A stretch of 54,175 nt of DNA from Thermoflexia bacterium (GTDB lineage: Bacteria; Chloroflexota; Anaerolineae; B4-G1; SLSP01), in assembly GCA_011192175.1 (NCBI GenBank), contig DUEJ01000155.1, positions 1 to 54,175 of the forward strand, given 5' to 3'. Shown here piece by piece: positions 32,403-39,489 of this stretch. A program made the translations under genes and the position numbers. How positions within the stretch are numbered: position 1 is the stretch's first letter; each line of letters starts with the position of its first letter. Below the pieces are notes generated by a model that had not been told where the DNA came from, made no database searches, and worked only from the letters and a program-made list of their open reading frames with translations.

Positions 32403-32657
32403 ATGAAGGTCATTGAATATACAACTGAGTTTTCCCCGGATGGACACCTCACACTGCCGCCTACAATGTTACCGGACATTGATTTACGTCAGCCTAAAAA
32501 GGTAAGAGTTCTCATCATATATGAAGAAACGCCGCCCCAAAAAACATTAGCACATTTCGGGGGCCGTTGGTAAATTAACCGCAGCGCCGATGAAATCGTT
32601 GCCGAACTCTACGCAGAACGTGAACAGAACGGACAGATGGATACAGTGACATGGTAA
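32403..32657 (+). pseudogene. Putative VapB-like antitoxin interrupted by an in-frame stop
   Basis: MKVIEYTTEFSPDGHLTLPP...TLAHFGGRW then TAA (32571-32573). The same frame continues INRSADEIVAELYAEREQNGQMDTVTW*, a typical VapB C-terminal pattern overlapping the next start. Confidence 0.6.
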
Positions 32658-32905
32658 ATGCGCCTACACATTTGATAGATACCAATATCATGATCTCTTG
32701 GCTCACCGCTCGGTATCCTCAAGTTCAACAACATATTGCCCAACTCGATAGCCGTTACATCTTTGTCTCGGCTATTACCGTAGCGGAGTTGTACTTTGGT
32801 GCGCATAATTCTGCCAGACCGCTCGAAAACTGGACACGAGAAACGCATTACGGTAAAAGTAATCCCAGCGTTATTTATGACGTTGGGAGACATAATAGCC
32901 GCTGA
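32651..32905 (+). pseudogene. C-terminally truncated PIN-domain (VapC-like) toxin
   Basis: THLIDTNIMISWLTARYPQVQQHIAQLDSRYIFVSAITVAELYFGA is a PIN N-terminus; the later conserved acidic residues are missing. Confidence 0.65.
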
Positions 32906-32963
32906 TGAGTCAGGCTGTGATGGTTCAGGGTTACGAGAGATAGGAGAATAGCCAGTTAGCTTG

Positions 32964-33083: not shown

Positions 33084-33112
33084 TTGTCTTACATCTACTC
33101 TTAAAGTATAAT
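33084..33112 (+). promoter_or_regulatory. Sigma70-like promoter upstream of the BMP transporter operon
   Basis: TTGTCT (33084-33089), 17-nt spacer, TATAAT (33107-33112). Confidence 0.55.
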
Positions 33113-33238: not shown

Positions 33239-35356
33239 ATGCAGAAGAAACTTTGGTCACTTTTTAGTTTGATGTTAGTAGTTAGCATGTTGTTGGCCGC
33301 CTGTGCCACTCCCACCCCGGAACCCACTGCGGCTCCTGCGGAAGAGACGGCAGAGGTCGTAGTCACGGAAGAGCCGGAACCTTCCATCTCGGTGGGCATG
33401 GTCACGGATATGGGCGGCGTGGATGACAAATCCTTCAACGCCACTTCTTGGAAAGGCGTGGAGCGCGCGATTGAGGAGCTGAACGTGGATGGTTCCTACT
33501 TGGAATCCCAGCAACAGACCGATTACGCCACCAACATCACTCAATTCGTGAAGCAGGGCACGGACCTCATCATCACCGTAGGCTTTATGCTAGCGGATGA
33601 TACGGCTAAGTTCGCGGAAGAATATCCCGATACCAACTTCGCTATCGTGGACTATTCCTTTGGCGGCGCGTATGACAACGTGCGCGGCTTGACCTTCGCC
33701 ACCGATCAGGCCGGTTTCTTGGCCGGTTACACGGCAGCCGCGGCCTCCAAGACCGGGAAAATTGCGACCTTCGGCGGCATCAACATTCCGCCCGTAACCA
33801 TTTTTATGGTCGGTTTTGAAACGGGCGCGCAGTATTACAACGAGCAGCACGGCACCCAGGTTGAGGTATTGGGTTGGAACAGCGCCGAAAACAACGGCGT
33901 CTTCGTAGGTAACTTTGAATCCACCGACGATGGCCGGCGCGTGGCGGAAGAGTTCCTCTCCGAGGGCGCAGACGTCATCATGCCTGTGGCCGGGCCAGTG
34001 GGGCTAGGTTCCGCGCAGGCTGTCAAGGAACAGGGCAACGCTTGGATCGTCGGGGTGGATACCGACTGGGTCATCAGCGCGCCGGAATACGCGGAGATCG
34101 TACTCACCAGCGTAATGAAGAACATGGACGTGGCGGTTTTTAATACCGCCAAGAAGGTGGCGGATGAGAGCTTTAAGGGTTTCCACGGTGAGACTTACGT
34201 GGGCTCCCTGGAAAACAACGGGGTCGGGATTGCCTCCGTAGCCGCAGGCACGGTCTCTGCTGAAATGTTGCAAGAGTTGGAAGATGTCAAGCAGGCCATC
34301 ATTCACGGCGACGTGGAGACTGGTTGGAATGCGTATCTAGAGAACCTGGGCGGCGAGTCCGAGGAACCCGAGTACCGCGATATCATCGTCGGTATGGTCA
34401 CGGATATGGGCGGCGTGGATGACAAATCCTTCAACGCTACTTCTTGGAAAGGCGTGGAGCGCGCGATTGAGGAGCTGGGCGTGGAAGGTTCTTACCTGGA
34501 ATCCCAGCAACAGACCGATTACGCCACCAACATCACCCAATACATGAAACAAGGCACGGATCTCATCGTCACCGTAGGCTTTATGCTGGCGGATGATACG
34601 GAGAAGTTCGCCCCAGAGAACCCCGATATCAACTTTGCCATCGTGGACTATTCCTTTGGCGGCGCGTATGACAACGTGCGCGGGTTGACCTTCGCTATTG
34701 ATGAAGCCGGTTTCCTGGCGGGTTACGCGGCGGCGGGGGCTTCCAAGACCGGCAAAATCGCGACCTTCGGCGGCATCAATATCCCACCGGTAACTCAATT
34801 CATGGTCGGCTTTGAAGCGGGCGCCCAATACTACAACGAGCAGGCCGGGGCCCAGGTTGAAGTGTTGGGTTGGAATTCTGCTGAGAACAACGGCGTCTTC
34901 GTGGGCAACTTCGATTCCACCGATGATGGCCGGCGCGTGGCGGAAGAGTTCCTCTCCGAGGGCGCGGACGTCATTATGCCCGTGGCCGGGCCGGTAGGAC
35001 TAGGTTCCGCGCAGGCCATCAAGGAACATGGCGACGCTTGGATCGTCGGGGTGGATACCGACTGGGTCATCAGCGCGCCGGAATACGCGGAGATCGTACT
35101 TACCAGCGTGATGAAGAACATGGATGTGGCGGTTTTCAACACGATCAAGATGGTTGCGGCCCAGAACTTCGAGAGTTTCCATGGCGAGACCTACCTGGGC
35201 TCCCTGGAGAATAACGGGGTAGGACTCTCAGCAGTGGCTGCGGGGGCGATCTCCGATGAGGCCATCACAGGTCTAGAAGAGGCTAAACAAGCCATCATTC
35301 ACGGCGACGTGACAACCGGTTGGGTTGATTACCTGGCCAATTTGAGTGCGGAGTAG
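33239..35356 (+). CDS. BMP-family ABC transporter substrate-binding lipoprotein with two tandem BMP domains
   Basis: Lipobox SMLLAACATP. The sequence (VGMVTDMGGVDDKSFNATSWKGVERAIEEL...GSYLESQQQTDYATNIT...) occurs twice in frame, offset 996 nt. Confidence 0.95.
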   Translation: MQKKLWSLFSLMLVVSMLLAACATPTPEPTAAPAEETAEVVVTEEPEPSISVGMVTDMGGVDDKSFNATSWKGVERAIEELNVDGSYLESQQQTDYATNITQFVKQGTDLIITVGFMLADDTAKFAEEYPDTNFAIVDYSFGGAYDNVRGLTFATDQAGFLAGYTAAAASKTGKIATFGGINIPPVTIFMVGFETGAQYYNEQHGTQVEVLGWNSAENNGVFVGNFESTDDGRRVAEEFLSEGADVIMPVAGPVGLGSAQAVKEQGNAWIVGVDTDWVISAPEYAEIVLTSVMKNMDVAVFNTAKKVADESFKGFHGETYVGSLENNGVGIASVAAGTVSAEMLQELEDVKQAIIHGDVETGWNAYLENLGGESEEPEYRDIIVGMVTDMGGVDDKSFNATSWKGVERAIEELGVEGSYLESQQQTDYATNITQYMKQGTDLIVTVGFMLADDTEKFAPENPDINFAIVDYSFGGAYDNVRGLTFAIDEAGFLAGYAAAGASKTGKIATFGGINIPPVTQFMVGFEAGAQYYNEQAGAQVEVLGWNSAENNGVFVGNFDSTDDGRRVAEEFLSEGADVIMPVAGPVGLGSAQAIKEHGDAWIVGVDTDWVISAPEYAEIVLTSVMKNMDVAVFNTIKMVAAQNFESFHGETYLGSLENNGVGLSAVAAGAISDEAITGLEEAKQAIIHGDVTTGWVDYLANLSAE

Positions 35357-35368
35357 TTTGATTAATGA

Positions 35369-35400
35369 GAGGCGGGGCTTGTGTAAGCCCCGCCTCTTTT
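35369..35400 (+). terminator. Terminator-like hairpin after the BMP gene
   Basis: gaggcggggctt-gtgt-aagccccgcctctttta: inverted repeat followed by a short T run. Confidence 0.8.
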
Positions 35401-35490: not shown

Positions 35491-37038
35491 ATGCCCCCAG
35501 TGCTAGAGTTAAAAGGCATTACCAAACGCTTCCCCGGAGTGCTGGCCAATGATCATATTGATCTAAAGCTGCATGAAGGGGAAGTGTTAGCCCTTTTAGG
35601 AGAAAATGGGGCCGGTAAAAGCACATTGATGAACGTGCTCTATGGTCTTTACACCCCCGAAGAAGGGGAAATTTTTGTTCGTGGACAGCTGGCCGCTATT
35701 CAGGAACCTAATGATGCGATTGATTTAGGAATTGGGATGGTGCATCAACACTTCATGTTGGTGCCGGTGTTCACCGTGGCCGAAAATGTCATGTTGGGAA
35801 TGGAATCCATCAAAAATGGCATACTCTTGGATCGGCAAGATGCGGCGGAGCGTGTACGCGATATCTCCCAAAAATATGGTTTGGATGTGGACCCGAATGA
35901 CATGGTGGGCGATCTGCCCGTGGGCTTGCAGCAGCGCGTAGAGATTATCAAACTGCTCTATCGCAATGCAGATATTTTAATTTTAGATGAACCGACGGCC
36001 GTACTCACCCCGCAAGAAGTCAAGGGGTTATTTGAAGTAATTCGTTCTTTGGTGGCGCAGGGGAAATCGGTGATCTTTATTTCTCACAAGCTCAAAGAGA
36101 TCCGCGAAATAGCCGATCACGTGGCGGTGTTGCGCCGAGGCAAGATGGTCGGCGCAGCCGATCCGAAGCAGTGTACCGAGCGTGATTTGGCTTCACTGAT
36201 GGTCGGGCGGGACGTGATCTTGGAGGTTCCCAAGAAACCGGCTAATCCAGAAGCTGTGGTATTAGCGGTAGAGGATTTGCGTGTGATGGGGGACAGAGGG
36301 AAGCTCGCGGTGGAAGGCATCTCTTTTGAGGTGCGCGCCGGCGAGATAGTCGGCGTGGCCGGAGTGCAGGGCAACGGCCAGACAGAACTAGTTGAAGTGC
36401 TTACCGGTTTACGGGAAGCGCTCAGCGGCTCGGTGCGCTTATTAGACCACGAGATCCTCAATGCTGCGCCGCGCGTCATTACTGAGATTGGGACAGCGCA
36501 CGTCCCCGAAGATCGGCATCGTGATGGCTTGGTGCTGGGTTACTCCGTCGCCGATAACTTGGTGCTCAATACTTACTACCTCCCCCCGGTGGCGCGCGGC
36601 CTAGTCATGCAAGAAACGGTGATCAACCAGCGCGCAGACGAGCTGGTAGCCGAGTATGATGTGCGCACGCCCAGTATTATGACCCCGGCCGGGAACCTCT
36701 CTGGCGGCAATCAGCAGAAAGTGATCGTGGCGCGCGAATTGAGTCGGGACGTGGCGCTGGTCATCGCCTCACAACCCACGCGCGGCTTGGATGTCGGTTC
36801 TATCGAGTACATCCACTCGCAGTTGGTGCGGAAACGCGATGAGGGCGCGGCGGTCTTTGTGGTTTCTTCCGAGCTGGACGAGGTATTATCGCTGGCCGAT
36901 CGCATCGTGGTGCTTTTTGATGGCCAGATTATGGATGTAGTGTCAGCTGAAACAGCGGTCAAAGAAGAAATTGGTTTGCTGATGGCCGGGGTACATTCGC
37001 AGGCAGAATTAGAAGCCAAGCGGGAGGCGGCAGCATGA
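35491..37038 (+). CDS. Nucleoside/sugar ABC transporter ATP-binding protein (NupO/RbsA-like, two ABC domains)
   Basis: LLGENGAGKSTLMNVLYGLYTPEEGEI, LPVGLQQRVEIIKLLYRNADILILDEPTAVLTPQE, LSGGNQQKVIVARELSRDVALVIASQPTRGLDVGS. Confidence 0.95.
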   Translation: MPPVLELKGITKRFPGVLANDHIDLKLHEGEVLALLGENGAGKSTLMNVLYGLYTPEEGEIFVRGQLAAIQEPNDAIDLGIGMVHQHFMLVPVFTVAENVMLGMESIKNGILLDRQDAAERVRDISQKYGLDVDPNDMVGDLPVGLQQRVEIIKLLYRNADILILDEPTAVLTPQEVKGLFEVIRSLVAQGKSVIFISHKLKEIREIADHVAVLRRGKMVGAADPKQCTERDLASLMVGRDVILEVPKKPANPEAVVLAVEDLRVMGDRGKLAVEGISFEVRAGEIVGVAGVQGNGQTELVEVLTGLREALSGSVRLLDHEILNAAPRVITEIGTAHVPEDRHRDGLVLGYSVADNLVLNTYYLPPVARGLVMQETVINQRADELVAEYDVRTPSIMTPAGNLSGGNQQKVIVARELSRDVALVIASQPTRGLDVGSIEYIHSQLVRKRDEGAAVFVVSSELDEVLSLADRIVVLFDGQIMDVVSAETAVKEEIGLLMAGVHSQAELEAKREAAA

Positions 37039-38231
37039 ATGAGAAAAAGCAGGCAGCAGCAGAGCAGCACGCTGGAGGAACATTCGAGTTACAGGGTGCC
37101 TTACGGAGCTTGGCAGTTCCATTTTTGGCGATTGTCACGGCCATGATTCTGGGCGCGCTCTTGATTATCTTTACCGATACTACCGTGATTGCGGCTTGGG
37201 GAGAGGGGTTAGGGAGCGGGTTGCGCCGTTCTTGGGAAGTTATCGCGCTGGCTTATGGGGCTTTCTTCACCGGTGCTTTTGGGGATGTCTATCATATTAC
37301 TGAAACCTTGCGCATCGCCACGCCGTATATCTTCGCCGGTCTAGCGGTGGCATTCGGTTTCCAGGGGGGACTCTTCAATATCGGCGCTGAGGGACAATAC
37401 TTTATTGGCGGATTAGCCACTGTCTTTGTGGGATATAGCATCAAGGGCTTGCCGATGATTATCCACTTGCCGCTGGCTTTGCTGGCGGGCGCGTTAGGAG
37501 GAGCATTGTGGGCCGGGATCGTCGGTTTCCTCAAGGCTAAAACCGGCGCGCATGAAGTCATCAACACGATTATGATGAACTACATCGCTTATCGTCTGGC
37601 CGAATTTATGTTGGACGTGGGTGGTTTGATGGCGCGCGAGGGTTATCGTCCGGTCAGCCCAGAGATTCAACCGTCTGCTTATCTGCCCCAATTCTTTCCC
37701 TCCGATACCACCATCCGTTTTAACGCCGGTTTCTTGTTGGCATTGGGGGTGGCGGCTTTTATCTGGTGGTTGCTCTATAAAACCACCCTGGGTTATGAGA
37801 TTCGGACGGTGGGGAAGAGTCCCCATGCGGCCCGTTACGCCGGCATCAATGTGCCGCGCACCATCGTGATCACGATGGCAATTAGTGGCGCACTGGCGGG
37901 GTTAGCCGCCCCCGCAGATATTTTGGGGGTGATTCACTTTATGCCTAACTCCTTTGCCTCTGGCTACGGCTTTGACGCGATTGCGTTAGCCTTGTTGGGC
38001 AAAAGCAATCCGGTGGGAGTGGTGCTAGCCTCATTGCTCTTTGGCGCCTTGCGGGCAGGAGCGACTAATATGCAAGGCATCGCCAACATTCCCATTGATA
38101 TCACGTCGGTTTTGCAAGGTTTGATCATCGTCTTCATTGCTGCTCCGGAAATCATCCGGGCAATCTATCGTTTCCGTGGTTTGGAAGAAGGCGAAGGACT
38201 GGTCCTGACTCAGGGCTGGGGCCAGATGTAG
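37035..38231 (+). CDS. BMP-type ABC transporter permease (NupP-like)
   Basis: Polytopic; LFNIGAEGQYFIGGLATVFVGY and INTIMMNYIAYRLAEFML are BPD_transp_2 signatures; 4-nt overlap with the ATPase gene. Confidence 0.93.
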   Translation: MNEKKQAAAEQHAGGTFELQGALRSLAVPFLAIVTAMILGALLIIFTDTTVIAAWGEGLGSGLRRSWEVIALAYGAFFTGAFGDVYHITETLRIATPYIFAGLAVAFGFQGGLFNIGAEGQYFIGGLATVFVGYSIKGLPMIIHLPLALLAGALGGALWAGIVGFLKAKTGAHEVINTIMMNYIAYRLAEFMLDVGGLMAREGYRPVSPEIQPSAYLPQFFPSDTTIRFNAGFLLALGVAAFIWWLLYKTTLGYEIRTVGKSPHAARYAGINVPRTIVITMAISGALAGLAAPADILGVIHFMPNSFASGYGFDAIALALLGKSNPVGVVLASLLFGALRAGATNMQGIANIPIDITSVLQGLIIVFIAAPEIIRAIYRFRGLEEGEGLVLTQGWGQM

Positions 38232-38241
38232 GAGGAGAGAG

Positions 38242-39489
38242 ATGACAGACAAATTAGAGAAAGAAGGACGCAGAGCGCGCAACATAGGGATTATTTTCCT
38301 GCTCTTTGCCGTGGCGATTTTGGTTTTATTTCTGCCGGGCACGGACGGGGGGGGCTTAACAACTTTCACTTTTAACACGAGTAAGGGCGAGGTGCTGCCG
38401 CTGCCGGATCTGGTCTTTGCGACCCGGTTGGGGCTTTATCTGTTGGCGTTGGTGACGGCTTTTCTGGGAGCTTGGCAATTGGCCCGGGGCTTTGAACAGC
38501 TGAACGCGGTGTTGGGCGGGGTAGCGTTGCTCTTTATCCTGGGGTTTTTGAGTTGGGCGGCCCGTGACAAATCTATGAACTTGACGGGAATGCTCCAATC
38601 AACGCTTTTGCGTTCCATCCCCATCACCCTGGCCGCGTTAAGCGGCGTGATGTGTGAGCGCAGCGGGATCGTCAATATCGGCATTGAGGGCATGATGTTG
38701 ATGGGCGCCTTCTTCGCCGCGCTAGTGGGGAGCGTCGCCGATAGCTACTGGTGGGGTTTAGCGGCAGCGTTGCTAGGAGGGGGGCTGGCTGGGGCATTGC
38801 TAGCCGTGCTCTCTATCCGCTACAAAGTTGATCAAATCATAGCCGGTACGGCAATTACTATCCTTTCGACGGGTCTAACCAGCTACTTCAGCTCGCGGTA
38901 CTTGCAGGCCAACAGTGCATTGAATAGTCCCCCCACTTTCCGGCCGATTGCGTTGCCCATCTTGAGCAAAATCCCGATCATTGGACCGATTTTCTTCAAC
39001 CACACTTTGCTGGTCTATCTGACTTTGCTCTTGGTAGCGCTTATTTACGTGATGCTCTTCTACACCCGGTGGGGTTTGCGCACGCGCGCCGTGGGTGAAC
39101 ATCCCCGCGCGGCAGATACCCTGGGCATTGACGTCTTCAAAATCCGTTACATCAACGTGATCTTGGGCGGGATGATCGCCGGGTTGGGCGGAGCGTACCT
39201 GGTGCTCAGTTCCGTGGCGCGCTTCGACGAGATGATGACCGGCGGCAAAGGTTACATCGGGCTAGCGGCCATGATCTTCGGCAACTGGAACCCCATCGGG
39301 GCGTTGGGTTCGTCGCTCATCTTTGGATTCGCCGATTCCTTGCAGGTAAAATTGGCGATTATGAGCGTGCCGATTCCCTCGCAGTTCTTGCTGATGGCGC
39401 CTTACCTGGTTACGATGATCGTCTTGGCCGGCGTGGTCGGGAAATCACGTGCGCCCGCCGCGGATGGTGTGCCTTACGAGAAAGGGTAA
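38242..39489 (+). CDS. BMP-type ABC transporter permease (NupQ-like)
   Basis: GVMCERSGIVNIGIEGMMLMGAFFAALVG, RAVGEHPRAADTLGIDVFKIRYINVILGGMIAGLGGAYL. Confidence 0.93.
   Translation: MTDKLEKEGRRARNIGIIFLLFAVAILVLFLPGTDGGGLTTFTFNTSKGEVLPLPDLVFATRLGLYLLALVTAFLGAWQLARGFEQLNAVLGGVALLFILGFLSWAARDKSMNLTGMLQSTLLRSIPITLAALSGVMCERSGIVNIGIEGMMLMGAFFAALVGSVADSYWWGLAAALLGGGLAGALLAVLSIRYKVDQIIAGTAITILSTGLTSYFSSRYLQANSALNSPPTFRPIALPILSKIPIIGPIFFNHTLLVYLTLLLVALIYVMLFYTRWGLRTRAVGEHPRAADTLGIDVFKIRYINVILGGMIAGLGGAYLVLSSVARFDEMMTGGKGYIGLAAMIFGNWNPIGALGSSLIFGFADSLQVKLAIMSVPIPSQFLLMAPYLVTMIVLAGVVGKSRAPAADGVPYEKG

Follow-up and report, generated by a model that had tools for sequence, protein, structure and literature searches.

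Tandem BMP/PnrA-type receptor domains, variable in number, in the lipoprotein of a nucleoside-type importer locus of Anaerolineae

Receptors of the PnrA/BMP type include TmpC/PnrA of T. pallidum, BmpA and BmpD of Borrelia, PnrA of S. pneumoniae and Lbp of C. thermocellum (7x0r). The protein described here shares with them the fold, the pocket residues, lipoprotein character and the type of importer genes, but they have one domain each and it has two per anchor. The four Borrelia proteins BmpA-D are encoded by separate, diverged, adjacent genes, unlike the single-gene tandem reported here. Known tandem receptor domains are chiefly fused to a permease and differ in specificity. The two of GlnPQ from Lactococcus lactis (SBD1-SBD2) bind independently, and their tethering aids delivery (PMC8025302). 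Importers of the OpuA type, whose receptor domains are permease-fused, likewise hold two or more receptor domains in each importer complex; there the second domain comes from permease dimerisation rather than in-chain duplication (PMC11065425).

We describe a gene from a Thermoflexia bacterium (genome G000; 2.4 Mb, 169 contigs) within a window, meaning the whole stretch of DNA analysed, of 54,175 nucleotides (Table 1). Like GlnPQ it supplies two tandem receptor domains, joined by a short flexible linker, to one importer. Unlike GlnPQ, in which the domains are permease-fused, fall in a different receptor cluster and have unlike specificities, its domains are of BMP type with matching pockets and form a separate lipoprotein, the ORF ending after domain 2 and the permeases being separate genes. 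Taken singly, the domains are PnrA-type receptors of the ordinary sort, and GlnPQ already provides a precedent for receptor domains in tandem. In the literature searched we found no paper on tandem BMP domains, nor any free tandem-BMP lipoprotein with locus-variable domain number and homogenised cores.

Table 1. Features of the focal receptor gene and its importer locus (window positions)
Feature	Coordinates	Strand	Basis
Promoter-like site TTGTCT-17-TATAAT, 5' of receptor gene	33084..33112	+	Consensus match only; best of 6 sites vs 5.5 expected by chance
Focal gene, two-domain BMP/PnrA-type lipoprotein	33239..35356	+	705 aa; ORF, two PF02608 stretches, AF2 model with two complete domains
Signal peptide with lipobox LAAC (Cys22) and Thr/Pro/Glu-rich spacer	33239..33382	+	Direct sequence reading
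BMP domain 1 (residues 49-371)	33383..34351	+	Pfam
Interdomain linker GESEEPEYR	34352..34378	+	EPEY motif common to G012 and G023 linkers
BMP domain 2 (residues 381-705)	34379..35353	+	Pfam
14-bp GC-rich hairpin, gap between receptor and transporter genes	35367..35398	+	Fold -30.2 kcal/mol, z -5.4
ABC ATPase, two ABC_tran domains, sugar/nucleoside type	35491..37038	+	ORF and domain search
Permease A (BPD_transp_2)	37035..38231	+	ORF and domain search
Permease B (BPD_transp_2)	38242..39489	+	ORF and domain search

The focal ORF runs from its ATG to its stop without an internal stop codon. An earlier note made from the sequence had read it as one lipoprotein with two BMP domains offset by 996 nt in frame, and both the ORF and Pfam analyses agree: the repeat offset is exactly that length, and PF02608 matches two stretches with scores of 192.6 and 190.2 bits, well over its cut-off (24.1), and a whole-protein E of 1.7e-111. 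It departs in this from the usual, though not strictly defining, single-domain form, which was also recorded in that note and is the form of most BMPs seen, including all of the top plasmid matches. The lipobox cysteine is invariant across the tandem homologues. Both domains are confident in the AF2 model; its pTM is low (0.50), which fits a flexible linker, and pLDDT falls below 50 at residues 21-44 and 371-376.

To call the domains near-identical, as the note did, is right in that their likeness is far beyond chance, and slightly generous: amino-acid identity is 85.7-86.7%, nucleotide identity is 83-85% (83.4% over 969 nt), and the final, C-terminal ~130 nt of the repeat unit are only 53-72% identical. 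The differences it quoted (QFVK/QYMK and FAEEYPDTN/FAPENPDIN) are present. Differing codons comprise 80 silent and 48 replacement changes, with dN 0.09 and dS 0.64 between copies (dN/dS about 0.16) and a dN/dS of 0.08-0.16 for each copy against relatives; both domains, as judged from sequence, are complete and under purifying selection.

By its sequence and setting, the focal gene is the predicted receptor gene of a nucleoside-type ABC importer. The order RNase III-ClpB-receptor-ATPase-permease-permease-RsmF-like is kept in relatives with one, two or at least three receptor domains, and because it is conserved we regard these receptors as versions of one gene at one locus. The nearest family names, those of the NCBIfam 'putative B6 ABC transporter' (NF047927-NF047930), were rejected, since all importer genes score under the cut-offs (receptor 101.5 vs 400 bits, ATPase 494 vs 670, permeases 137 vs 400 and 205 vs 465). 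No Rfam family, the purine riboswitch included, matched upstream of the focal gene up to E=0.1. The hairpin behind the receptor gene is probably an attenuating terminator or mRNA stabiliser; hairpins of this kind often allow a receptor to be made in excess over its transporter. Between clpB and the receptor gene lie a 56-aa small ORF (32403-32573) and an 84-aa ORF (32651-32908), the latter matching only the first half of a PIN domain (PF01850, E=1.2e-5); together they look like the remnant of a broken VapBC-type toxin-antitoxin pair.

All Pfam and fold matches of the focal protein are of BMP/PnrA or LacI/periplasmic sugar-binding type. Among solved structures the closest is Lbp of Clostridium thermocellum with guanosine (7x0r), followed by S. 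pneumoniae PnrA, Borrelia BmpA and BmpD, and T. pallidum PnrA. The nine nucleoside contacts surveyed (Asp19, Asp24, Phe27, Asn28, Asp98, Phe151, Phe176, Asp225 and Lys242 in BmpA numbering) are kept in both domains. Two pocket Phe positions, occupied by F66 and F226 in domain 1 and by F398 and F558 in domain 2, are essential in BmpA. The corresponding motif, DDFNDFFDK, occurs in every complete domain copy of the tandem proteins examined, except that one protein has Tyr for one Phe; it is absent from four other BMP proteins of the focal genome. Both focal domains are probably working nucleoside receptors of like specificity, and the ligand, being read from the pocket, could be another nucleoside-like compound.

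A junction profile, composed of the end of domain 1 and the start of domain 2, was searched in 396 genomes of the class Anaerolineae, counting full-length junction matches in a frame of at least 600 aa. Tandem BMP proteins occur in at least 31 of these sampled genomes, from 15 families, and domain search confirmed them all; two further candidates (G338 and G120) are cut by contig ends. A count of genomes with a two-domain form had been called for in the earlier note. In the family of the focal genome the domain number at this one locus ranges from one to at least three. Single-domain forms are common in that family, which also includes a 696-aa tandem protein (G011), one with at least two domains at a contig end (G012) and one with three or more in-frame BMP units next to a contig end (G023, L103:1-2418). 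The true unit number of the last may be higher, because its two complete copies have a 524-nt exact run in common. G053 and G059 gave the impression of two adjacent genes in a BLAST table, and each is one in-frame ORF. A scan of the phylum at E<=1e-85 found the focal genome alone, at a threshold too strict to exclude distant tandem BMPs.

Our preferred explanation, to which we assign a probability of about 0.72, is an in-frame, tandem-duplicated receptor in which two domains of the same specificity share one lipid anchor and serve one nucleoside-type importer. The BMP domain of the receptor would have been duplicated in tandem and in frame, so that two receptors acting independently, with ligand ranges that are identical or almost so, would share the anchor and be joined by a short flexible linker. 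Each could dock to the same permease pair, which would double the number of binding sites that one anchor holds close to the importer. The domain number (one, two or at least three) would shift through unequal recombination among near-identical units, and gene conversion between units would keep the cores alike. Raised ligand capture from two sites per anchor, suggested in the earlier note, is plausible, and the doubling may raise uptake.

The domain phylogeny that had been proposed as a check bears on how such proteins arose. In the domain tree, both domains of a protein mostly pair with each other as sisters (G000, G011, G053, G059, G064, G110, G146, G280, G307, G342), which implies repeated duplication or homogenisation. 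In one genus (G101, G170, G188) the first and the second domains form separate clades, so the duplication predates these species; in another, seven species have one common tandem architecture. In both genera the two-domain form outlived speciation, with inter-domain identity of 76-81%. In the home family the cores group by protein, whereas the C-tails of internal domains from G012 and G023 form a group of their own (support 0.85) that is separate from the terminal tails; grouping of cores by protein and tails by position is the mark of gene conversion acting on an older duplication. Silent-site identity between the focal domains is clustered (runs test p=0.0006, against 0.18-0.84 for four orthologue pairs); a longest-run test for gene conversion did not reach significance (p=0.10). 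Taken together, the trees of domains and of tails and the patchiness of silent-site identity point to repeated duplication with gene conversion. The EPEY linker motif hints at a common origin of the duplication in G000, G012 and G023; it is the sole argument for a shared origin, and the focal duplication could be independent of that in G011, G012 and G023.

The main rival is neutral drift in copy number, in which recombination creates and removes repeats and nothing is gained from the second domain. In several tandem proteins (G011, G146, G280, G064, G059) the copies are identical or almost so, and some of the duplications may therefore be young and neutral; a range of one to at least three domains at one locus, with single forms common in the same family, is what such drift would also give. 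We nevertheless consider it unlikely: purifying selection on both focal domains, the intact pocket of every sampled copy and the persistence of two-domain forms across species of two genera all speak against it, and independent fusions of BMP to other receptor domains suggest that multi-domain receptors are favoured in the class. A bolder extension of tandem duplication, offered tentatively, is that the locus is a recombining receptor array, in which BMP units are gained, lost and homogenised, and valency (1, 2 or at least 3) is evolvable, perhaps variable within populations, and sets uptake. If so, much of this variation would escape short-read assemblies, in which the repeats break or collapse.

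Improbable to our minds is dual specificity, raised in the earlier note, by which the two domains would bring different ligands to one importer as those of GlnPQ do. Besides that precedent, the domains differ at 48 residues, one of which (Ile188/Gln520) adjoins a pocket Phe, and the tandem proteins of G200 and G282 join two BMP subfamilies merely 39% alike. The residues that line the pocket argue the other way. Eleven pocket positions with roles described for BmpA (PMC13325309, PMC7093131) could be mapped; 10 match, and the two focal domains agree at all 11, which makes different ligands unlikely. The cores, moreover, are probably kept alike by gene conversion.

An assembly artefact, in which one domain was duplicated or two strain variants or genes were fused, was rejected, since even with a fragmented, 86% complete source assembly and several relatives whose contigs break within the repeat, assemblers do not invent copies that diverge by 16.6% in nucleotide sequence (about one base in six) with a longest exact run of 67 nt, the focal gene lies interior to a 54-kb contig with conserved flanks, and the form recurs in independent assemblies, among them that of G307, which has 7 contigs and carries its tandem BMP on one of 1.2 Mb. 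The earlier note had also dismissed a simple assembly duplication, on the scattered differences between the copies. The contig ends of G012 and G023 have 77 nt in common with another unit of their own gene, at a distance of exactly 990 or 1980 nt (one or two unit lengths), as expected if the assembler breaks at a repeat. An exact contig-end overlap of this kind was sought in G007 and none was found, so G007 and G018 are not classed as repeat breaks. Annotation probably undercounts tandem BMPs, because repeats break short-read assemblies.

A free lipoprotein with two or more alike domains, present in many lineages of one class and variable in number at its locus, forms a natural comparison set for the question of whether receptor doubling per anchor raises uptake.

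A tendency to combine receptor domains within a single lipoprotein seems to run through the Anaerolineae. BMP is joined to SBP_bac_5, phosphonate-binding, SBP_bac_8 or Peripla_BP_6 domains in L115:6195-8810 (G025), L114:7460-9436 (G048), L075:4786-6942, L170:885-3236 (G149) and L120:2-4054 (G014). Three receptor domains in one frame occur as BMP-BMP-phosphonate type in L126:736-3918 (G064) and L130:679-3927 (G307), as BMP-BMP-SBP_bac_8 in L136:19-3105 (G110) and as SBP_bac_8-BMP-BMP in L151:812-4000 (G098), where the frame exceeds the fetched stretch. A 741-aa fusion of BMP to a BPD_transp_2 permease (L113:2722-4944, G040), GlnP-like in layout, adjoins a separate single-domain BMP gene. The operon is of the same kind as at the focal locus and BMP again serves as a tethered receptor, with one domain on the permease against two on the lipoprotein. 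Frames of similar length to this fusion lie at 8470-10785 of L073 and 5972-8263 of L074.
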